From a virus: a DNA stretch of 38,345 nucleotides. Under the pieces are notes generated by a model. The model made no database searches and was not told the origin of the DNA. It worked only from the letters and a program-made list of their open reading frames with translations. Position numbers and translations under genes: made by a program. How positions within the stretch are numbered: the first letter of the stretch is position 1; each line of letters starts with the position of its first letter. Shown piece by piece: positions 12,476-19,659 of this stretch. The stretch covers positions 1 to 38,345 of the IMG/VR virus record IMGVR_UViG_3300042319_000714; one strand, given 5' to 3'.

Positions 12476-15106
12476 CTATGTCAACGTGACAGATTTCCAA
12501 GTTGTTCCGTTGTGAATGTGCAGGGTGTTGCTGTTGGTGTTGAAGAACATAGGCACATTGGTCCCACTCACGTTGGTCGGCGTGCCCGATGGATTGCTGG
12601 ATGCTGCCGGGATGTAGACAAACCCGTCGATCATCGAGCTGCCGCCAATCGGCCCAATAAAGTCACCGCCGGACTGGCGGTAGCTCGCCCCCTTGATCAA
12701 CTTGCCGGTGGCACCATCGAACAGAACGAAGTCGCCATCCGTCGCGCTGCCGGGTCCCACCACGTCGCCGGTGCCAGTGCCTGTGGCTGCAATGGTGATC
12801 GTGCCGGAGCCGTTGGTGATGGTGATGTTTGCGCCCGCGGTGAGCTTTGCCCGCGCAAGCGTGCTCCCGATGCTCTTTCCGATGAGCAAGTCGCCGTCGC
12901 TGAAGACGTTGGACTGGCCTGTGCCGCCGTTGATCACGCCTAGTGTCCCGCTGACAGCAGATCCGCCCAGGGCAATCTGGGGTAGGTCGATGGCCTGGAT
13001 GTCGGACATGACCACGTTGGTGCCATTGCCGCGCAGATATCTGCCGTTGGTCTGCGAGCCGGCCAGTGCATCTATTGCGCTCTGGGCCGTGATGCTGGCG
13101 GTGCCGCCCTTGGAGATCGGCAGCACATTGCTCGTGCCGCTGTTCAGGTCGACCGTGTCCCAGATAGCCGCGGAGCCGGTGCTGGTCAGTACCTTGTACT
13201 GCGTACCCACCGAGGTGAGGCCTGTACCGCCATTGGCGATTGCCAGAGTACCGGTCATCGTCACTGAGCCCGAGGTAGTGATCGGGCCCCCGGTGAATGA
13301 CATCCCGGTAGTCCCGCCGCTCACACCCACTGAGGACACGCTCGCGCCCGCAGTGATGCCGTCGAGCTTAGTGGCCTGTGCCGAGGTCATGTAGCCGTTC
13401 TGCGTGGTCGTAGCCGCCACCTGGCTGATCACCGGGGTGGTGCTGCCGGTAGCCACCGAGATATTGGCACCGCCCGAGGCCGACACGTTGGTCACGGTGC
13501 CGGCGTTGGCGGTGTACCCAGCCGGGTTGCTGTCGGGGTAGGCCCCGAGGCTGGTCAGGGCTCCGGCAGCCGTGGTCGCTCCGGTACCACCGTTGGCCAC
13601 ATCCAGCGTGCCGGCCAGCGTCAGCGTGCCTGTGGTGGTCACAGGGCCGCCCGAGAAGGTCAGGCCTGTCGTGCCGCCAGAAGCGTCGACCGACGTCACC
13701 GAGCCGGCAGCAGTCGACGACAGCGTGGTGCCAGACATCGACAGGCCGGTGCCTAGGCTGATCTCCTGGGCGACCCCAGCACCGGCGCCGGCGCCGCGGC
13801 CGAGTAGTCTTGAGGCCGCCGAGATGTCTTGGATCTTGGCGTAGGTCACCGCGCTGGTGGCGATTGTCTGGGCCGTACCACCGGCAGCCTTGGTGACGTC
13901 CCCGGTGAAGGCGCTGGTCTGGATGCCGCCGGAGCCTGTGAACTCCACACCGCCGCCGACGGTCAATTCCTCAACAACGCCCGTCCCCGAGGTATCGCGG
14001 CCCAGGATCTTGTCGGTGGCAATCTGCTGCACCTTGGCGAAGGTCACCGCATTGTTGGCAATGGTCGCAGCGAAGGACCCCGTGCCAGACCCGGTGACAT
14101 CCCCGGTCAGCGTGATCGTCTGGTCGCCGGTGTTGCTGCCCGACAGGTTGCTGCCGGTAACCGTGCCCGAGGCAGCCACCGAGGTCGGGGTGATGGCACC
14201 CAATGCTACGGTCAGGTTGGGCGTGCTGGTCGCATTGGTGACCGTGCCGCTCACGCCGTTGGCATTGGTGAACCCGAAGGACGTCACCGTGCCGGTGTTC
14301 GACGTGTAGCCATTCGGATTCGACGCAGGGTAGGCCCCCAGGCTTGTCAAGGCAGCCGCCTCGGTGGTTGCACCAGTTCCGCCTGCCGACACGGCTACAA
14401 CCCCTCCCAGCGTGATTGTGCCGCTGCTGGTGATCGGGCCGCCCGAGGTCGTCAGGCCTGTCAGGCCTCCAGAGACGTTGACACTGGTCACACCGCCGCC
14501 GGTGGGGCCAGCGGGTCCGGCAGGGCCGGTGGGGCCAGCAGGCCCTTGCGGACCCTGCAGACCGCCGGCACCGAGGGGCTTGGTGGCTCCGGTGTCGAGC
14601 CGGGTGATCTCGCAGACCGTGTAAATCTCATCAACCCCGGTGATCGAGGAGTCGGTGCCAAGGTGCGATGCGCCGTCGCTGGTGATGTAGTACTCCAGCC
14701 GGTACACCGTGTCCTTGTGCGGCGTGATGCGCACGTTGGTGTGCAGGTACTGGCTCTCCTGGTTGGTGACGTCGTCCGAGGCGCTGTATCCGATCACCAC
14801 GCTGTTGGTGACGTCATACACCCGCATCCGTGTCTCCCGGGTATGGTGGAACGGGCTGATCACCCGGATCTGGTAGGCACCGGCAGCTAACTTGAACTCG
14901 CTATTGGCCAGGTCGAGGATCAGGCCGCTCGGATCGCTGGCTACGGTGTTCAGGTCGCGTGTCGTCCACGTCGTTGCCACGCCATTGCCGCCCGGTGTGC
15001 CCGAGGCCTTGCGGTCCTCAATGAGCGCGATCTTCTGCGTCAGGCTGTCGACGTCCTTACGCAGCTTGTTGATCAGGATCGTGCTGGTCTGTGAATCGTA
15101 GCTCAT
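12476..15106 (-). CDS. Tail fibre/appendage protein with collagen-like segment and beta repeats
   Basis: 876 aa. A coiled coil (residues 8-32, INKLRKDVDSLTQKIALIED) leads to a beta-sandwich-like domain (40-175). A collagen-like Gly-x-y stretch follows (about 179-203, GPAGPTGPAGPAGPTG), then several hundred residues of degenerate repeats built on GGTGATT, LTSLGAYP and SGGPITTSG, and a tip (750-876) with GDFVLFDGATGKLIKG and LHIHNGTTWKSVTL. Trimeric assembly via coiled coil and collagen is typical of host-binding fibres. It overlaps the polyvalent protein stop (ATGA). The repeats are recombination-prone and may let the tip be swapped. Confidence 0.85.
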   Translation of the reverse strand: MSYDSQTSTILINKLRKDVDSLTQKIALIEDRKASGTPGGNGVATTWTTRDLNTVASDPSGLILDLANSEFKLAAGAYQIRVISPFHHTRETRMRVYDVTNSVVIGYSASDDVTNQESQYLHTNVRITPHKDTVYRLEYYITSDGASHLGTDSSITGVDEIYTVCEITRLDTGATKPLGAGGLQGPQGPAGPTGPAGPAGPTGGGVTSVNVSGGLTGLTTSGGPITSSGTITLGGVVAVSAGGTGATTEAAALTSLGAYPASNPNGYTSNTGTVTSFGFTNANGVSGTVTNATSTPNLTVALGAITPTSVAASGTVTGSNLSGSNTGDQTITLTGDVTGSGTGSFAATIANNAVTFAKVQQIATDKILGRDTSGTGVVEELTVGGGVEFTGSGGIQTSAFTGDVTKAAGGTAQTIATSAVTYAKIQDISAASRLLGRGAGAGAGVAQEISLGTGLSMSGTTLSSTAAGSVTSVDASGGTTGLTFSGGPVTTTGTLTLAGTLDVANGGTGATTAAGALTSLGAYPDSNPAGYTANAGTVTNVSASGGANISVATGSTTPVISQVAATTTQNGYMTSAQATKLDGITAGASVSSVGVSGGTTGMSFTGGPITTSGSVTMTGTLAIANGGTGLTSVGTQYKVLTSTGSAAIWDTVDLNSGTSNVLPISKGGTASITAQSAIDALAGSQTNGRYLRGNGTNVVMSDIQAIDLPQIALGGSAVSGTLGVINGGTGQSNVFSDGDLLIGKSIGSTLARAKLTAGANITITNGSGTITIAATGTGTGDVVGPGSATDGDFVLFDGATGKLIKGASYRQSGGDFIGPIGGSSMIDGFVYIPAASSNPSGTPTNVSGTNVPMFFNTNSNTLHIHNGTTWKSVTLT

Positions 15107-18100
15107 TGCTTGGACTTCTTTCGGATAATGCGTTGGGCCTCGTCAAGGCTGGCCGCGATGCCGATCAGGCTGCCGGCGGGGCCGTAGAGGCGGAGACTGC
15201 CCTTGGCCTTGCCCGGGATGGCTCGGTAGCCGCCGGGGAAGGAGTAGGCACCGGGCATGGCTGAGTCGGGGGAGGGCATCATTCGCACGTCGCTTGAAGC
15301 AGGACCAAGGTCGACCGCATCTGCGAGTAAAGGCTCGCCATCAGACCCAAGCCCGACAAGCCATCCAGCCACGTAGCGCTTCTCGCCGGGGTTAAACATT
15401 TCGTAGGTGCCAACATCGGATTGAGGCTCACCAACAATTCGCAGCACCGACACTCCTCGCTCCATTCTGTCTTCAGCGAAGTTCTTACTGCGGCCCTCAG
15501 TTGGTAACTTACCGATGCGCTCAGCCATTACCCAGCGAGGCGGTTCAGCGCCTTCTCTGCCCATCTCAAAGGCAGCAGTTCTTGCCATGTCGTAGCCTAC
15601 ATAGTCCGGCACGTCATAGTATTGAGGATCTTGGCTTCTCGTCTTTACGCCGTCTCTGTAGGCAGCATCCAGTGACCTGCGAGGCTTTGGAAGCATCTGC
15701 AGTGCTTTGGTGTCCTGATCAGAAGCCGGCATGAAGCGGATATCCTCCGAGGTAGCCTTGAAGCGCTGCGAAAGCGGGATGACGTTGCCGGCGTCGTCCT
15801 TGGTGATCGCATCAACCAGTTTGACCTGGCTTGAATCTGCGACGTAGTAGATACGCTCGTTGCCGGGTAATTCGACAATGCCAGCCTTGGTAGGTTGATT
15901 TTCCGCACTGAACCCAGACATCACTTGCCCAAGCGTTTGCGGTGTAGCTTGGAATACGGGAGCACCTTCAGGAATGCGTAGGAAAACCCGCTTCACTTCG
16001 GGCACGGCCTTTGTCGAGGTCATCACCTTGGCCGCCTCAATAAAGCTGTCGGACAACCTTTTGTTGATAGGCTTCAGGTCTTTGGCGTGACCACGCAGTT
16101 CCTTGATGAACCCAGGAACATCGTCAATGGAACCCCAGTCGAACTCAGGCAGCATCCCGTCATCGACCGAGCTGTAGCCCTTGGACGAGAAGTACTCCTG
16201 AGCAGCCACATCCTCGTCGAACATACGCATGGCGTCGTTGGCAACGCGCAGGCCTGCATCCAATCGCACAGCCTCGTCACCTAGGCGCTTGGAGTAGCCT
16301 TCAGCAGCCTTCTTGTCGGTGGTGAACGAGAACGCTTGGCGGGACACACCCGAGGTCTCGCCACGCATCCGCTTGTCGAATACGTTGAACCCGCCTGTAG
16401 GTGTGCCGTGGTAGACAGGACCAATGGTATACCCAGCCGCCTTCGCCGCCTCATCGACCATCCGCTGCGCGGTGGCCGTGTCGCCAGAGTTCACTGCCTC
16501 CAGATAGTCACTATCTGAAGGCATGAACCTTACATCCCCCGCTTGTCGAACCGCCCCGCCTTCGCCTTGGCCTTCTTGGCCACGCTCAATGCGATTGCGA
16601 CCGCCTGCTTCTGCGGTTTGCCGGACTTCATCTCCCGGGACACGTTGCTGCTGATCGACTTCTGGCTGTAGCCTTGCTTGAGTGGCATCTGCTTTCCTTT
16701 CTGCTTGGGTTTGGGTGTCGTAGATTCCGATGAGCTTTCCATCGGGACCGTAGAGCTTGTGCTTGGCACCGCTGATGATGCGGTAGCCCTCATCGGAGTT
16801 GATGATCGACTTGTCGCCGATGGTCTCGGCGGGCATCCAGCGATTCTTTGAGAGCTGGTAGGCTTCCTCGGAGAACTTCGCTTTGAAGTCCATCGGAGAC
16901 ATCGAGCCAACGCGATCCAGCCGGAAGCTGCGAACGAACTTGCTTCCAGTCTTTTCGCCAGCACCAACAAAGTCGCCAAGGAACTTTGCCTTCTCGACTC
17001 CGAATATCTCAGCGGAACGACGGGCACCTTCTTTTTGGTCGAGGTTGGTAAAGTACCTCGCCAGATCGGTCATAAACCCATCGGTATTGTTCCACAGGCC
17101 ACCGATGCTGCCATCCTTCTTGAGCAGCTTGCTGAGTTCGTTTCGGACCTTGGTGATGTCGATGGCCCTGACCACCGGATTGTCAGCCTTTGTGATCCAA
17201 AAGCTGTACGGAGAAAACTCCCGTTCGCTGACTTTGATTCCGCTGCTGTATTTGGGCGAATCCTTACCAGTGAGCCTATTCCTCACTCGGCGAAGTGCGG
17301 CGAAGTAGGTGACGAACAGGCTGTTTCCATTCTCCATTGCCAGATTGACGGCCCGGATCTTGTCCTTCATCCGGGAGCTGATCGTCTGCGATTGCTCGAT
17401 GGCACTGAGCTGCTCGGGGCTGAATCGACCAGTGATTTCACCGTCGACAAGTCTGGCTCCAGGAATCTTCTCGGTGATGGATCGCAACGAGGTCAGATCC
17501 TTGTCGTCGCGTGCTCGGATCTCTTCGCTGGAAAGGTTCCTGATGCTGCCATCGGGCATCTGCTCGGCCAATCCGAGGTCAACCAGCTCCTTAGCCGCCA
17601 ACGGGTTTGAAACGTCTTCCGGCTTCAGCACGCGGCCACCGCGGCTGTCATCGAGCATGATCTTCTCGTCCAGCTTGCGACGGGCACGCACCAGGTCACG
17701 CAACATGGCGTTCACCTGGGGAGATGCCTGCTTCAGATCAGGGAACAGCACCGAGTCAGTCGGCTTCACGCCGAAGGTGCGCTCAATCGAAGCAGCAGCG
17801 TTTGCGATGGCCTTGCTGGCGTTCTGCGTCAGTGCGGCATCCAAAAGCTGTCTGGTGAGGCCTGAGAAGCCTTTCAGCATTGCGTCCGGCTTCTGACCAG
17901 CAATCAGTGCTGCGAAGTGTTCAGCAGCCAGCTCCGAGGCAATGTAGTCGGCCTTCTTGTTGATCGTGTCGAACTGGGCAAGTTCTGCTGCACGCTGCGG
18001 ACTGCCTGCGGCCAGCTTGTCGCGGTACTCGTTGAAACGGGCCTCAATCTCGGCGTCATTGAAAGCGCCCTCGGCCAGCTTGCGGATGGTGTCGCCTTCC

Positions 18101-19659
18101 TGAATCCAGCGTCCGACAAGAGCGCTCTTGATCTCAGTTGCACCGCCTGCGAGCTGCTCGCTCTTTTCGAGAGCGTGGAACAGCTCATGGCCCAGCGTGT
18201 AGAGGGGGCTGTCGCCTTTGCCTTTGCCGAGGATGTCGGCATTGATGACAATGGTCGGGCGGTCTCCAATCTCAACCTGAACACCACGGGCACGGCCTTT
18301 GTACTGATCAACGAAGTCAGTGTCTGAAAGGTACTTTACGTCAACATCGCCAAACCGACCTTTGACCAGTCCTTCAACGTCCATCAGCGCCGATGCGGTA
18401 TCGACGCCGTGTTGGTCTCTGACACGCTCAAACAGCGCCTTGGTCGTCGGATCCTGCTGGGCGTCGATGAATCGTCCTAGGTCGCCGGCACGGGCTTCCT
18501 TAGCGGCAGCGCCTGTGAGCTTCTGGTAGGCACGGCCACCGATAGCACCGGCAGCACCTTGAGCAGCACCAGATCCGAGTCCAGCAGCAGCGCCTTCCTC
18601 GCCACCGGAAAGGTAGCCGAGGCCGGTTCCCAATACGGCACCCTCTAGTCCGCCAGCAGTGCCTCGCAGAGCAGCGTCCACCGCGGCATCGCCTCCGTAC
18701 TGACCGATCACACCCAGCATCCGCTGGCGCAGGTTAGCTCCCGGGGCAGCACCGATGGCTTCCAAAGGGCCGATGCGCGAAGGCTGGGTCATCAGGTTCT
18801 CGCCAGCAGCCGTAATGGCCTCTCCGACCTCGCGTGCGGTACGGATACCGGCAGGAATGGCAGCCGCGGTGGCCAGCTCCGGGGCAATGCCCAAGGCTCC
18901 GGCAACACCGGCTGTTGAAGCAGCGGTTCGAAGCGCTTCTGGCGTCATTCCAATGGCTTCCGCTGTCATGCGCTCGGCAGCGCCTGCAACACGCTCTAGG
19001 GGCCTTGCAACGCCAGCAACAGCACGCCCGGTTAGCTGAGCGCCTTTACCGACTGCACGGGTGGCCAGCTTGCCTGCACCGATTATCTCGCCGATACCAG
19101 GAAGAGCCAGTGTCGGGTCAAGGATCATGGACACGCCCTGGACAAACTCCGGGTTGGTGAACTCAGGTTGGATTGCCAGAAAGTCCTGACCGCTTTCAAG
19201 TCGTGCGGATCTGTTGGCAAAGTCTCGCGCCTCGAGGAACTGTTCGTACCGTGACTGCGCAGTGCCACTACCTGCAACAAGGTCCTTGAACTTGAAGAGT
19301 GGCGACGACGGGTCTTGAGACTGTGCGATCAGGCCGTAGAGCTGCCGGGTGCCTTGAGCCGCGCCCTCGATGTAGTTGAGCGGGTTGATTACGGCACCTT
19401 GGGCTCCCTCGGAGATCGCGCCACCGATCATGTTGGCTGCAGCATCCACCGACTGCGCGATGGTGTTGATCCAGTCGGTCTGCTTGGTCTTGGCGTACTC
19501 CTCGTACTTCAGGTAGTCTGCCTGCGTTGGCGTAAAGGCAGGGTCCTGCATTGCCAGCGAGATATCCTCGCCGGTCAATGGCGCATCCAGCAGGCTCTCG
19601 ACGCTGTCTGCTGGTTCAGGCCCGAGCAACGAGTCGATGTCCGCTTGGGATAGGGTCAT
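15103..19659 (-). CDS. Giant internal virion polyvalent protein (metalloprotease + ADP-ribosyltransferase-like)
   Basis: 1518 aa, the largest protein. Polar N-terminus; Gly/Ala-rich hydrophobic segments between about 180 and 400 that could cross a membrane; a zinc-metalloprotease HExxH at His491-Glu492-His495 (LGHELFHALE); long helical regions; a linker; then an ART-like domain beginning PVYHGTPTGGFNVF (Tyr1083) with FSFTTDKKAAEGY. The motif D-[VI]-R-[FM]-M-P recurs at Met1046, Met1310 and Met1461 between modules. A LYGPxGxLIGI module occurs twice (about 965-985 and near the C-terminus). Such polyvalent proteins are packaged and ejected with the DNA to modify host targets. A 52-aa gene is nested at residues about 991-1043. 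ATGA overlaps on both sides. Confidence 0.8.
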   Translation of the reverse strand: MTLSQADIDSLLGPEPADSVESLLDAPLTGEDISLAMQDPAFTPTQADYLKYEEYAKTKQTDWINTIAQSVDAAANMIGGAISEGAQGAVINPLNYIEGAAQGTRQLYGLIAQSQDPSSPLFKFKDLVAGSGTAQSRYEQFLEARDFANRSARLESGQDFLAIQPEFTNPEFVQGVSMILDPTLALPGIGEIIGAGKLATRAVGKGAQLTGRAVAGVARPLERVAGAAERMTAEAIGMTPEALRTAASTAGVAGALGIAPELATAAAIPAGIRTAREVGEAITAAGENLMTQPSRIGPLEAIGAAPGANLRQRMLGVIGQYGGDAAVDAALRGTAGGLEGAVLGTGLGYLSGGEEGAAAGLGSGAAQGAAGAIGGRAYQKLTGAAAKEARAGDLGRFIDAQQDPTTKALFERVRDQHGVDTASALMDVEGLVKGRFGDVDVKYLSDTDFVDQYKGRARGVQVEIGDRPTIVINADILGKGKGDSPLYTLGHELFHALEKSEQLAGGATEIKSALVGRWIQEGDTIRKLAEGAFNDAEIEARFNEYRDKLAAGSPQRAAELAQFDTINKKADYIASELAAEHFAALIAGQKPDAMLKGFSGLTRQLLDAALTQNASKAIANAAASIERTFGVKPTDSVLFPDLKQASPQVNAMLRDLVRARRKLDEKIMLDDSRGGRVLKPEDVSNPLAAKELVDLGLAEQMPDGSIRNLSSEEIRARDDKDLTSLRSITEKIPGARLVDGEITGRFSPEQLSAIEQSQTISSRMKDKIRAVNLAMENGNSLFVTYFAALRRVRNRLTGKDSPKYSSGIKVSEREFSPYSFWITKADNPVVRAIDITKVRNELSKLLKKDGSIGGLWNNTDGFMTDLARYFTNLDQKEGARRSAEIFGVEKAKFLGDFVGAGEKTGSKFVRSFRLDRVGSMSPMDFKAKFSEEAYQLSKNRWMPAETIGDKSIINSDEGYRIISGAKHKLYGPDGKLIGIYDTQTQAERKADATQARLQPEVDQQQRVPGDEVRQTAEAGGRNRIERGQEGQGEGGAVRQAGDVRFMPSDSDYLEAVNSGDTATAQRMVDEAAKAAGYTIGPVYHGTPTGGFNVFDKRMRGETSGVSRQAFSFTTDKKAAEGYSKRLGDEAVRLDAGLRVANDAMRMFDEDVAAQEYFSSKGYSSVDDGMLPEFDWGSIDDVPGFIKELRGHAKDLKPINKRLSDSFIEAAKVMTSTKAVPEVKRVFLRIPEGAPVFQATPQTLGQVMSGFSAENQPTKAGIVELPGNERIYYVADSSQVKLVDAITKDDAGNVIPLSQRFKATSEDIRFMPASDQDTKALQMLPKPRRSLDAAYRDGVKTRSQDPQYYDVPDYVGYDMARTAAFEMGREGAEPPRWVMAERIGKLPTEGRSKNFAEDRMERGVSVLRIVGEPQSDVGTYEMFNPGEKRYVAGWLVGLGSDGEPLLADAVDLGPASSDVRMMPSPDSAMPGAYSFPGGYRAIPGKAKGSLRLYGPAGSLIGIAASLDEAQRIIRKKSKQ
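16530..16688 (-). CDS. Nested 52-aa small conserved-type protein (MPLKxG...KPQKQAVAIAL)
   Basis: Lies wholly inside the polyvalent protein gene, same strand, different frame. ATG 16688 is preceded at good distance by AAGGA and the frame ends TAA at 16530-16532. The sequence (MPLKQGYSQKSISSNVS, then EMKSGKPQKQAVAIALSVAK, basic tail KAKAGRFDKRGM) matches, from memory, a small family found as stand-alone genes in many phages. The host frame here is low-complexity linker (Gln, Gly, Arg, Glu-rich), which suggests that the linker is tolerated and the small gene is what selection keeps. Function of the family is unknown; its basic character suggests nucleic-acid or capsid association. Confidence 0.7.
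   Translation of the reverse strand: MPLKQGYSQKSISSNVSREMKSGKPQKQAVAIALSVAKKAKAKAGRFDKRGM

Follow-up and report, generated by a model that had tools for sequence, protein, structure and literature searches.

The window, a virus record of 38,345 bases, carries a gene for a 1518-aa polyvalent-type protein, within which a small phrog_2423 gene is nested, complete and in another frame. The best explanation, which we consider likely, is that a virion-type phrog_2423 neighbour was overrun by the polyvalent gene, that the small gene was kept and is separately translated, and that the cassette which it forms serves as a joint for the modules of the long protein.

The nested gene (16530..16688, minus strand) starts with an ATG at 16688-16686 and stops with a TAA at 16532-16530, in a frame that differs from that of the 1518-aa ORF. 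The first-pass annotation, which gave no strand, had described a 52-codon frame with ATG and TAA inside the long gene, a Shine-Dalgarno-like element at a suitable distance, and a product from a small family carried elsewhere as a separate gene. All three were confirmed on the minus strand, with an AGGA at 16698-16695, six bases 5' of the ATG, a phrog_2423 profile match (E 3.4e-19, residues 1-44 of the small protein against 1-44 of 52), and tblastn matches of the small protein in 347 phage records. The small frame is mechanically open farther upstream, up to a GTG at 17027 (165 aa); all 23 aligned phrog_2423 members begin at the MPL... methionine, and the columns MPL, G6, S8, N15, G23, PQKQA and AIA are invariant over 23 sequences (the small protein and separate members). 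The 52-aa product is very basic (pI 10.9, charge about +10) and is predicted to form two helices (pLDDT 83.6, pTM 0.60). It scored 12.9 bits against Pfam DUF6496 (PF20106), below the gathering cut-off of 24, and no mention of DUF6496 was found in the literature covered, which mostly excludes subscription journals. Comparison of the structure model returned nothing at E <=0.001 among the best 50 of 102 matches; the top ones among these 50, beginning at E 2.3e-3, were for the most part phage proteins that are uncharacterised. A prohead serine protease at E 0.089 is a hint only. Among solved structures, sequence relatives of the small protein were not found at E up to 5. A chance ORF was ruled out by the phrog_2423 match and by selection in the small frame, and an assembly error by the presence of 58 distinct cassettes in many samples.

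The host gene (15103..19659, minus strand) lies in a block of virion genes, with a tail-fibre-like gene adjoining and an amidase/internal-virion-like gene in the same block. Genes for head-tail-adaptor-like, scaffold-like, major head and tail-fibre-like proteins are followed by a gene with amidase, baseplate and internal-virion-protein matches, by the 1518-aa ORF and by another tail-fibre-like gene, an order that would suggest a podovirus-like genome. T7-like phages have an ejected protein at the corresponding genome place. Directly before the small gene stands a domain that we call RLYG-like (16690..16791, bounds by eye), and a second, terminal copy, also placed by eye, lies at 15106..15243 with no small gene behind it. 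The bases of the small gene are read by the long frame as a linker (residues 992-1043, 16531..16686), followed by an exchangeable C-terminal module (residues 1044-1518, 15106..16530) that contains an ART-PolyVal-like stretch (16237-16416), all on the minus strand. The 52 linker residues include Q 9, G 9, E 6 and R 7, against 2.3, 5.4, 3.4 and 3.6 expected from the whole 1518-aa protein, and RFMP comes directly behind; the low-complexity Gln/Gly/Glu/Arg linker just before RFMP, as first annotated, is thus borne out. The ART-PolyVal-like stretch scored 25.4 bits against PF18760, below the Pfam cut-off of 31.2, and PF18760 matched four of ten modules of nested relatives, only that of L126 above the cut-off (120.5). 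RFMP or RMMP recurs near module boundaries of the polyvalent protein (residues 1044, 1308 and 1459), with RFQP in the outgroups, and this motif could be a processing or docking site. The N-terminal half of the long protein also carries HELFHALE at 18163-18282 (minus strand), HExxH metallopeptidase-like by eye; Pfam Peptidase_M91 gave only 12.4 bits on the long protein (cut-off 25). No tblastn match to the long protein at 1e-5 was found in isolate phage records, and no relative of the upstream host domain was found in genome contigs.

Polyvalent proteins of phages have been described as injected along with the DNA (Iyer et al. 2017, PMC5512222). Like those presented in the available text of that paper, the window protein is large (1518 aa) and multidomain, with an ART-PolyVal-like segment and modules that are exchangeable among relatives, and it is encoded in a virion gene block. 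Unlike them, its linker is supplied by a nested gene; the words 'overlap' and 'linker' have 0 occurrences in the main text of PMC5512222 as available.

The usual setting of phrog_2423 genes is outside any long ORF of another frame; in the window the gene is nested, as it is in the other cassettes. At least 576 of 600 IMG/VR stretches were matched by the small protein, and the best 80 IMG/VR loci comprised 8 nested and 72 non-nested ones by our length criterion. The neighbours of separate phrog_2423 genes vary: a P22-type coat gene stands upstream in one case, the gene lies between head genes in Pbunavirus (Ab28 gp35 is labelled 'virion protein' in its record), and K1-5 gp48 stands behind the tailspike gene and overlaps its neighbour by 23 nt only. 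The member of the Pbunavirus SCUT-S1 is S1_022/ORF22 (phrog_2423 E 1.3e-28), a protein of 7.46 kDa that appears with 7 peptides and 77% coverage in the mass spectrometry of purified particles, according to Table 1 in the available text of the SCUT-S1 paper (PMC6521218). The same table also contains helicase, holin and exonuclease, so that carry-over is possible and the presence of ORF22 is no proof of a structural role. SCUT-S1 is a distant phage, and by analogy with it the small protein of the window phage may be located in the virion. Weak profile matches (E 0.022 and 0.0083) connect the phrog_2423 family with the N-terminus of the head maturation protease profile. The window gene has the same start and core residues as the separate genes (Ab28 gp35, SCUT-S1 ORF22 and K1-5 gp48) and a similar length, and in both settings the protein is small and often encoded beside virion genes. 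In contrast to these three, the window gene is wholly within another gene, and most nested copies end in a GRFDKRGM-type tail, unlike the separate genes. In one cassette (L194, from 4515) the tail of the small gene is shortened in frame, with the RGM-stop and the host frame both kept. In Tunturiibacter phage Tunturi_3 (L003 5778-6446), an annotated 223-aa ORF in another frame covers a phrog_2423 gene that is itself unannotated, which is another overlap or a mis-call.

The nested arrangement was found in all of the 41 loci retrieved by a search with nothing but the upstream host domain: in 41/41 an intact small ORF occupied the corresponding place, beginning 2 bases behind that domain, and in every locus the host frame was open for at least 291 codons behind that domain or to the end of the available DNA. 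With all searches combined, nesting was found in 58 distinct cassettes including the window (58 when counted with flanks, 56 by cassette alone), with ATG in 58/58 and stops TAA in 31, TGA in 14 and TAG in 13. The upstream part was of the window's type (D-type) in 42/58 and of another type (Y-type, about 30-36% identical to the window) in 15/58. Openness of the host frame was one criterion in choosing the loci of this larger set, and a search for ATG placed 7 of its 58 starts, so that openness and ATG are not independent in it and the 41 loci are the fair test; we know of none that had the small gene in this position and was excluded because the host frame contained a stop. When 21 nested records were searched whole, 20 had one copy of the small gene and one, a chimeric-looking 44-kb contig, had two. 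The partnership is not obligatory, since a related record (L233/G024) has no small gene anywhere. Neither was a small gene present within the available stretches of L223 and L224, at three other, low-identity copies of the domain (L111 and L115, both 27.8%, and L012, 26.9%, host stop 6 codons on) or at the internal domain copy of L044; the stretches of L190, L195, L231 and L234 end too early. A linker kept with the small frame broken, or a lack of any family match, had been named beforehand as evidence against a gene, and neither appeared in the loci examined.

When the small gene was recoded at random with synonymous codons, an open host frame remained in an average of only 13% of trials. The host-equivalent frame was open in 17/72 non-nested relatives and in 12/26 of those with a G+C of at least 0.52, and the nested cassettes have a G+C of 0.57-0.64 (53 cassettes). 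Therefore, nested cassettes needed little to become open, and chance has a real share in their openness. The third frame was never open (0/53 nested, 0/72 others).

Selection was then compared between the frames: all single-base departures that the consensus allows were classed by what they do in each frame and scored as seen or unseen, the counts being kinds of change and not independent events. This codon-level check in relatives, which the first-pass annotation had proposed, favoured the small frame. Among the 56 unique cassettes, 49/89 changes that are silent in the small frame and alter the host were seen, versus 14/114 that alter the small frame and are silent in the host (Fisher p 5e-11); changes altering both frames amounted to 31/210, and those silent in the small frame but making a host stop to 0/11. 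For D-type cassettes alone, the silent-small, silent-host and host-stop classes gave 40/85, 11/114 and 0/11. The 170 codons just upstream, used as a control in 39 D-type loci, had the reverse pattern (88/357 vs 220/292), which indicates that the selected frame switches at the cassette. Where a codon was altered twice, each change was scored as if alone, so the control shows 6/30 'host stops' despite its open frame; such scoring would raise, not lower, the 0/11 count, and 11 are few cases. Inside the cassette, the small frame is the one under protein-level selection, and the host amino acids are nearly free, the only evident constraint being the absence of a stop. Both frames of the nested pair are thus open and selected, the host frame for its amino acids upstream of the cassette and within it for openness only.

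The AGGA (16695..16698, minus strand), a candidate Shine-Dalgarno element, falls within five codons before the ATG that read GAA AGG AAA GCA GAT in 42/42 D-type loci. Three of these are minority codons in the window genes (AGG 54/441 Arg, GAA 90/398 Glu, AAA 48/292 Lys). Silent variation was present in 12/16 of codons -24 to -9 by our count; codons -12 to -10 and -8 are likewise without silent change in D-type loci, so the five-codon block is not unique. A conserved ribosome-binding site would produce an invariant block of this kind, although other causes could do so too. The Y-type loci have an A-rich, non-consensus stretch before the ATG, with AAA GCA GAA AAA identical in 15/15, and AGGA, GGAG or AAGG was absent before the ATG in 15/58 cassettes, all of Y-type.

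Behind the cassette, the long proteins of relatives diverge. Host modules change at the TAA of the small gene (16530..16532, minus strand) or within the RFMP codons just behind it, and 14 clusters of C-terminal modules were found among the nested loci, 7 of them behind both upstream types (D and Y); clustering used the first 120 aa and demanded a nearly equal offset, by which displaced relatives may have been split among clusters. The host residue before the change point is Val in 58/58, its last two bases and the next base forming TAA, TAG or TGA. The next codon is AGG, the commonest, in 32/58, which read RFM, RYM or similar before diverging, and another codon in 26/58, which depart at once, so that the modules change at the stop codon of the small gene or within a few codons behind it. 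The far C-terminal ends of the long proteins are alike. In six D/Y pairs chosen for a common cluster, DNA identity rises from 0.34-0.60 upstream of the cassette to 0.82-0.97 within; downstream, five pairs stay at 0.77-1.00, and L129/L095 drops to 0.42-0.54 beyond 45 bases. The cassette appears to be a fixed joint between the N-terminal part and shuffled C-terminal modules. The 44-kb contig (IMGVR_UViG_3300044984_001713) carries its two nested cassettes 38.6 kb apart (L235 1-638; L236 4628-5265); its two ends agree at 92% as far as the stop codon of the small gene, beyond which their modules differ, and it may be a mixed population or a chimera of two relatives. With a conserved sequence in constant phase to the long frame, recombination between different phages inside the small gene would always give an in-frame joint of any N-terminal part with any C-terminal module, and this hinge would be kept intact by selection for the small protein. 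We tentatively suggest that the nested gene may be such a dual-coding recombination hinge, a homologous frame-keeping adapter for the shuffling of another protein, and we hold this with some reserve.

The origin of the arrangement was traced in 46 further loci (many on contigs already seen, L195 being left out of the table), of which 24 were nested, 1 was cut off inside the cassette and 15, on 11 contigs, were not nested; in the remaining 6 the small gene was unseen or the stretch too short, one being a whole record without a small gene. On these 11 contigs, the outgroups, 1-21 nt separate the stop codon of the polyvalent gene from the start of the small gene behind it. The polyvalent protein ends in an RLYG-like domain with the small gene next in 9 of these 11, L043 is arranged likewise, and in L219 a stop comes within 6 codons of the upstream domain and the small gene follows. 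The outgroups, on which the direction of the event rests, are only 23-37% identical to the window upstream. As the order of domain and small gene is common to both states, the nested state differs by a missing stop and by the modules behind. The small gene was probably the former downstream neighbour, and the long frame grew through it. The first-pass annotation had suggested that a gene was captured by, or moved into, a tolerant linker and that the long frame reads through it; the read-through stands, whereas insertion into a pre-existing linker is disfavoured by the outgroup order. Its suggestion that relatives might place the gene elsewhere and lack this linker was also borne out, as in more distant ones the small gene comes after the long gene and a different linker occupies this position.

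Under this preferred explanation, the long frame would have lost its stop and would run through the small gene in the other frame into further modules, reading the small-gene bases as the Gln/Gly/Arg-rich linker. The small gene would keep its own ATG, candidate ribosome-binding site and stop and be translated separately by internal initiation. One transcript would then bear both frames, with ribosomes from the long start making the polyvalent protein and others, at the small ATG, the basic two-helix protein, which is presumably expressed in the window phage. The likeliest role that we see for the small protein, though a tentative one, would be to help to place the polyvalent protein or the DNA in the head, a suggestion drawn from the detection of the family in particles and its location near head genes. 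Being inside the host gene, the small gene would be inseparable from its partner.

A move of the small gene into a pre-existing linker, for example by recombination between terminal and internal RLYG-like copies, seems to us unlikely but deserves some weight. Polyvalent proteins do hold internal and terminal copies of the domain; in L044 a linker that lacks the small gene comes after an internal copy, the small gene standing behind the terminal one, and in the window it is the terminal copy that has no small gene behind it (one match in the whole record). However, the junction of domain and small gene is the same in both states, stop loss plus added modules would seem to take fewer steps, and 20 of the 21 nested records searched whole have one copy, two being present only in the chimeric-looking contig.

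We regard as improbable a +1 ribosomal frameshift just before the small frame, by which a shortened polyvalent protein would end in the small domain and the small frame would not be translated alone. The small frame does lie at +1 relative to the host frame and in 58/58 has no stop in at least the 5 codons before its start, an A run (GAAAAAG) closely precedes the ATG of Y-type loci, and the weak matches place the domain in larger proteins, so that fusion is tolerated; but the ATG is kept in 58/58 and family members start there, D and Y types share no single motif before it (by eye), and the invariant D-type codons fit a ribosome-binding site. Similarly small is the chance of three genes in a row, with the downstream module starting at the Met of RFMP behind the small stop and the long frame not being one protein. 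An in-frame ATG does lie 2 codons past the junction in 32/58 cassettes and 4 codons past it in 8, and extra internal starts on top of the fusion are possible. Against separate genes, no host-frame stop occurs across the cassette in any of the 41 loci found by the upstream domain, and in 17/58 the first in-frame ATG (GTG and TTG uncounted) is at least 16 codons past the junction or absent within 80, lying behind residues common to the module cluster. That the small ORF is no gene but a conserved by-product of a constrained low-complexity linker is very improbable: the long frame is open and the linker compositionally biased, as such a by-product would have it, but the family match and separate relatives speak against this, and it is contradicted by selection in the small frame with a nearly free host amino-acid sequence.

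Fully nested same-strand phage genes include Rz1 in Rz and E in D of phiX174. Like these, the window's small gene is a complete gene inside another, in a different frame and with its own start; unlike them, it belongs to a widespread family, and the novel sequence is the linker of the long frame. Genes that adjoin are known to come to overlap when the stop codon between them is lost (PMC2268670), and the same route of origin is proposed here; compared with the cases in the available text of that paper, the overrun gene of the window is swallowed whole, has more modules behind it and is kept across many module exchanges. The arrangement is undescribed in the titles and abstract beginnings on polyvalent proteins and on nested or overlapping phage genes, among the matches listed, in a coverage that mostly excludes subscription journals. 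The usual account of nested genes in viruses is that a new protein arose within an older gene, and in the beginnings of abstracts on overlapping genes the nested protein is normally the new one in overprinting. Here, a gene of a widespread family has apparently been grown over by the one next to it, which makes the linker, and not the small protein, the newcomer. Gene callers that forbid long overlaps would lose this small gene. Further, our results suggest that one stretch of DNA may link a virion-type protein with a modular effector and also set the site at which the modules of that effector are exchanged.
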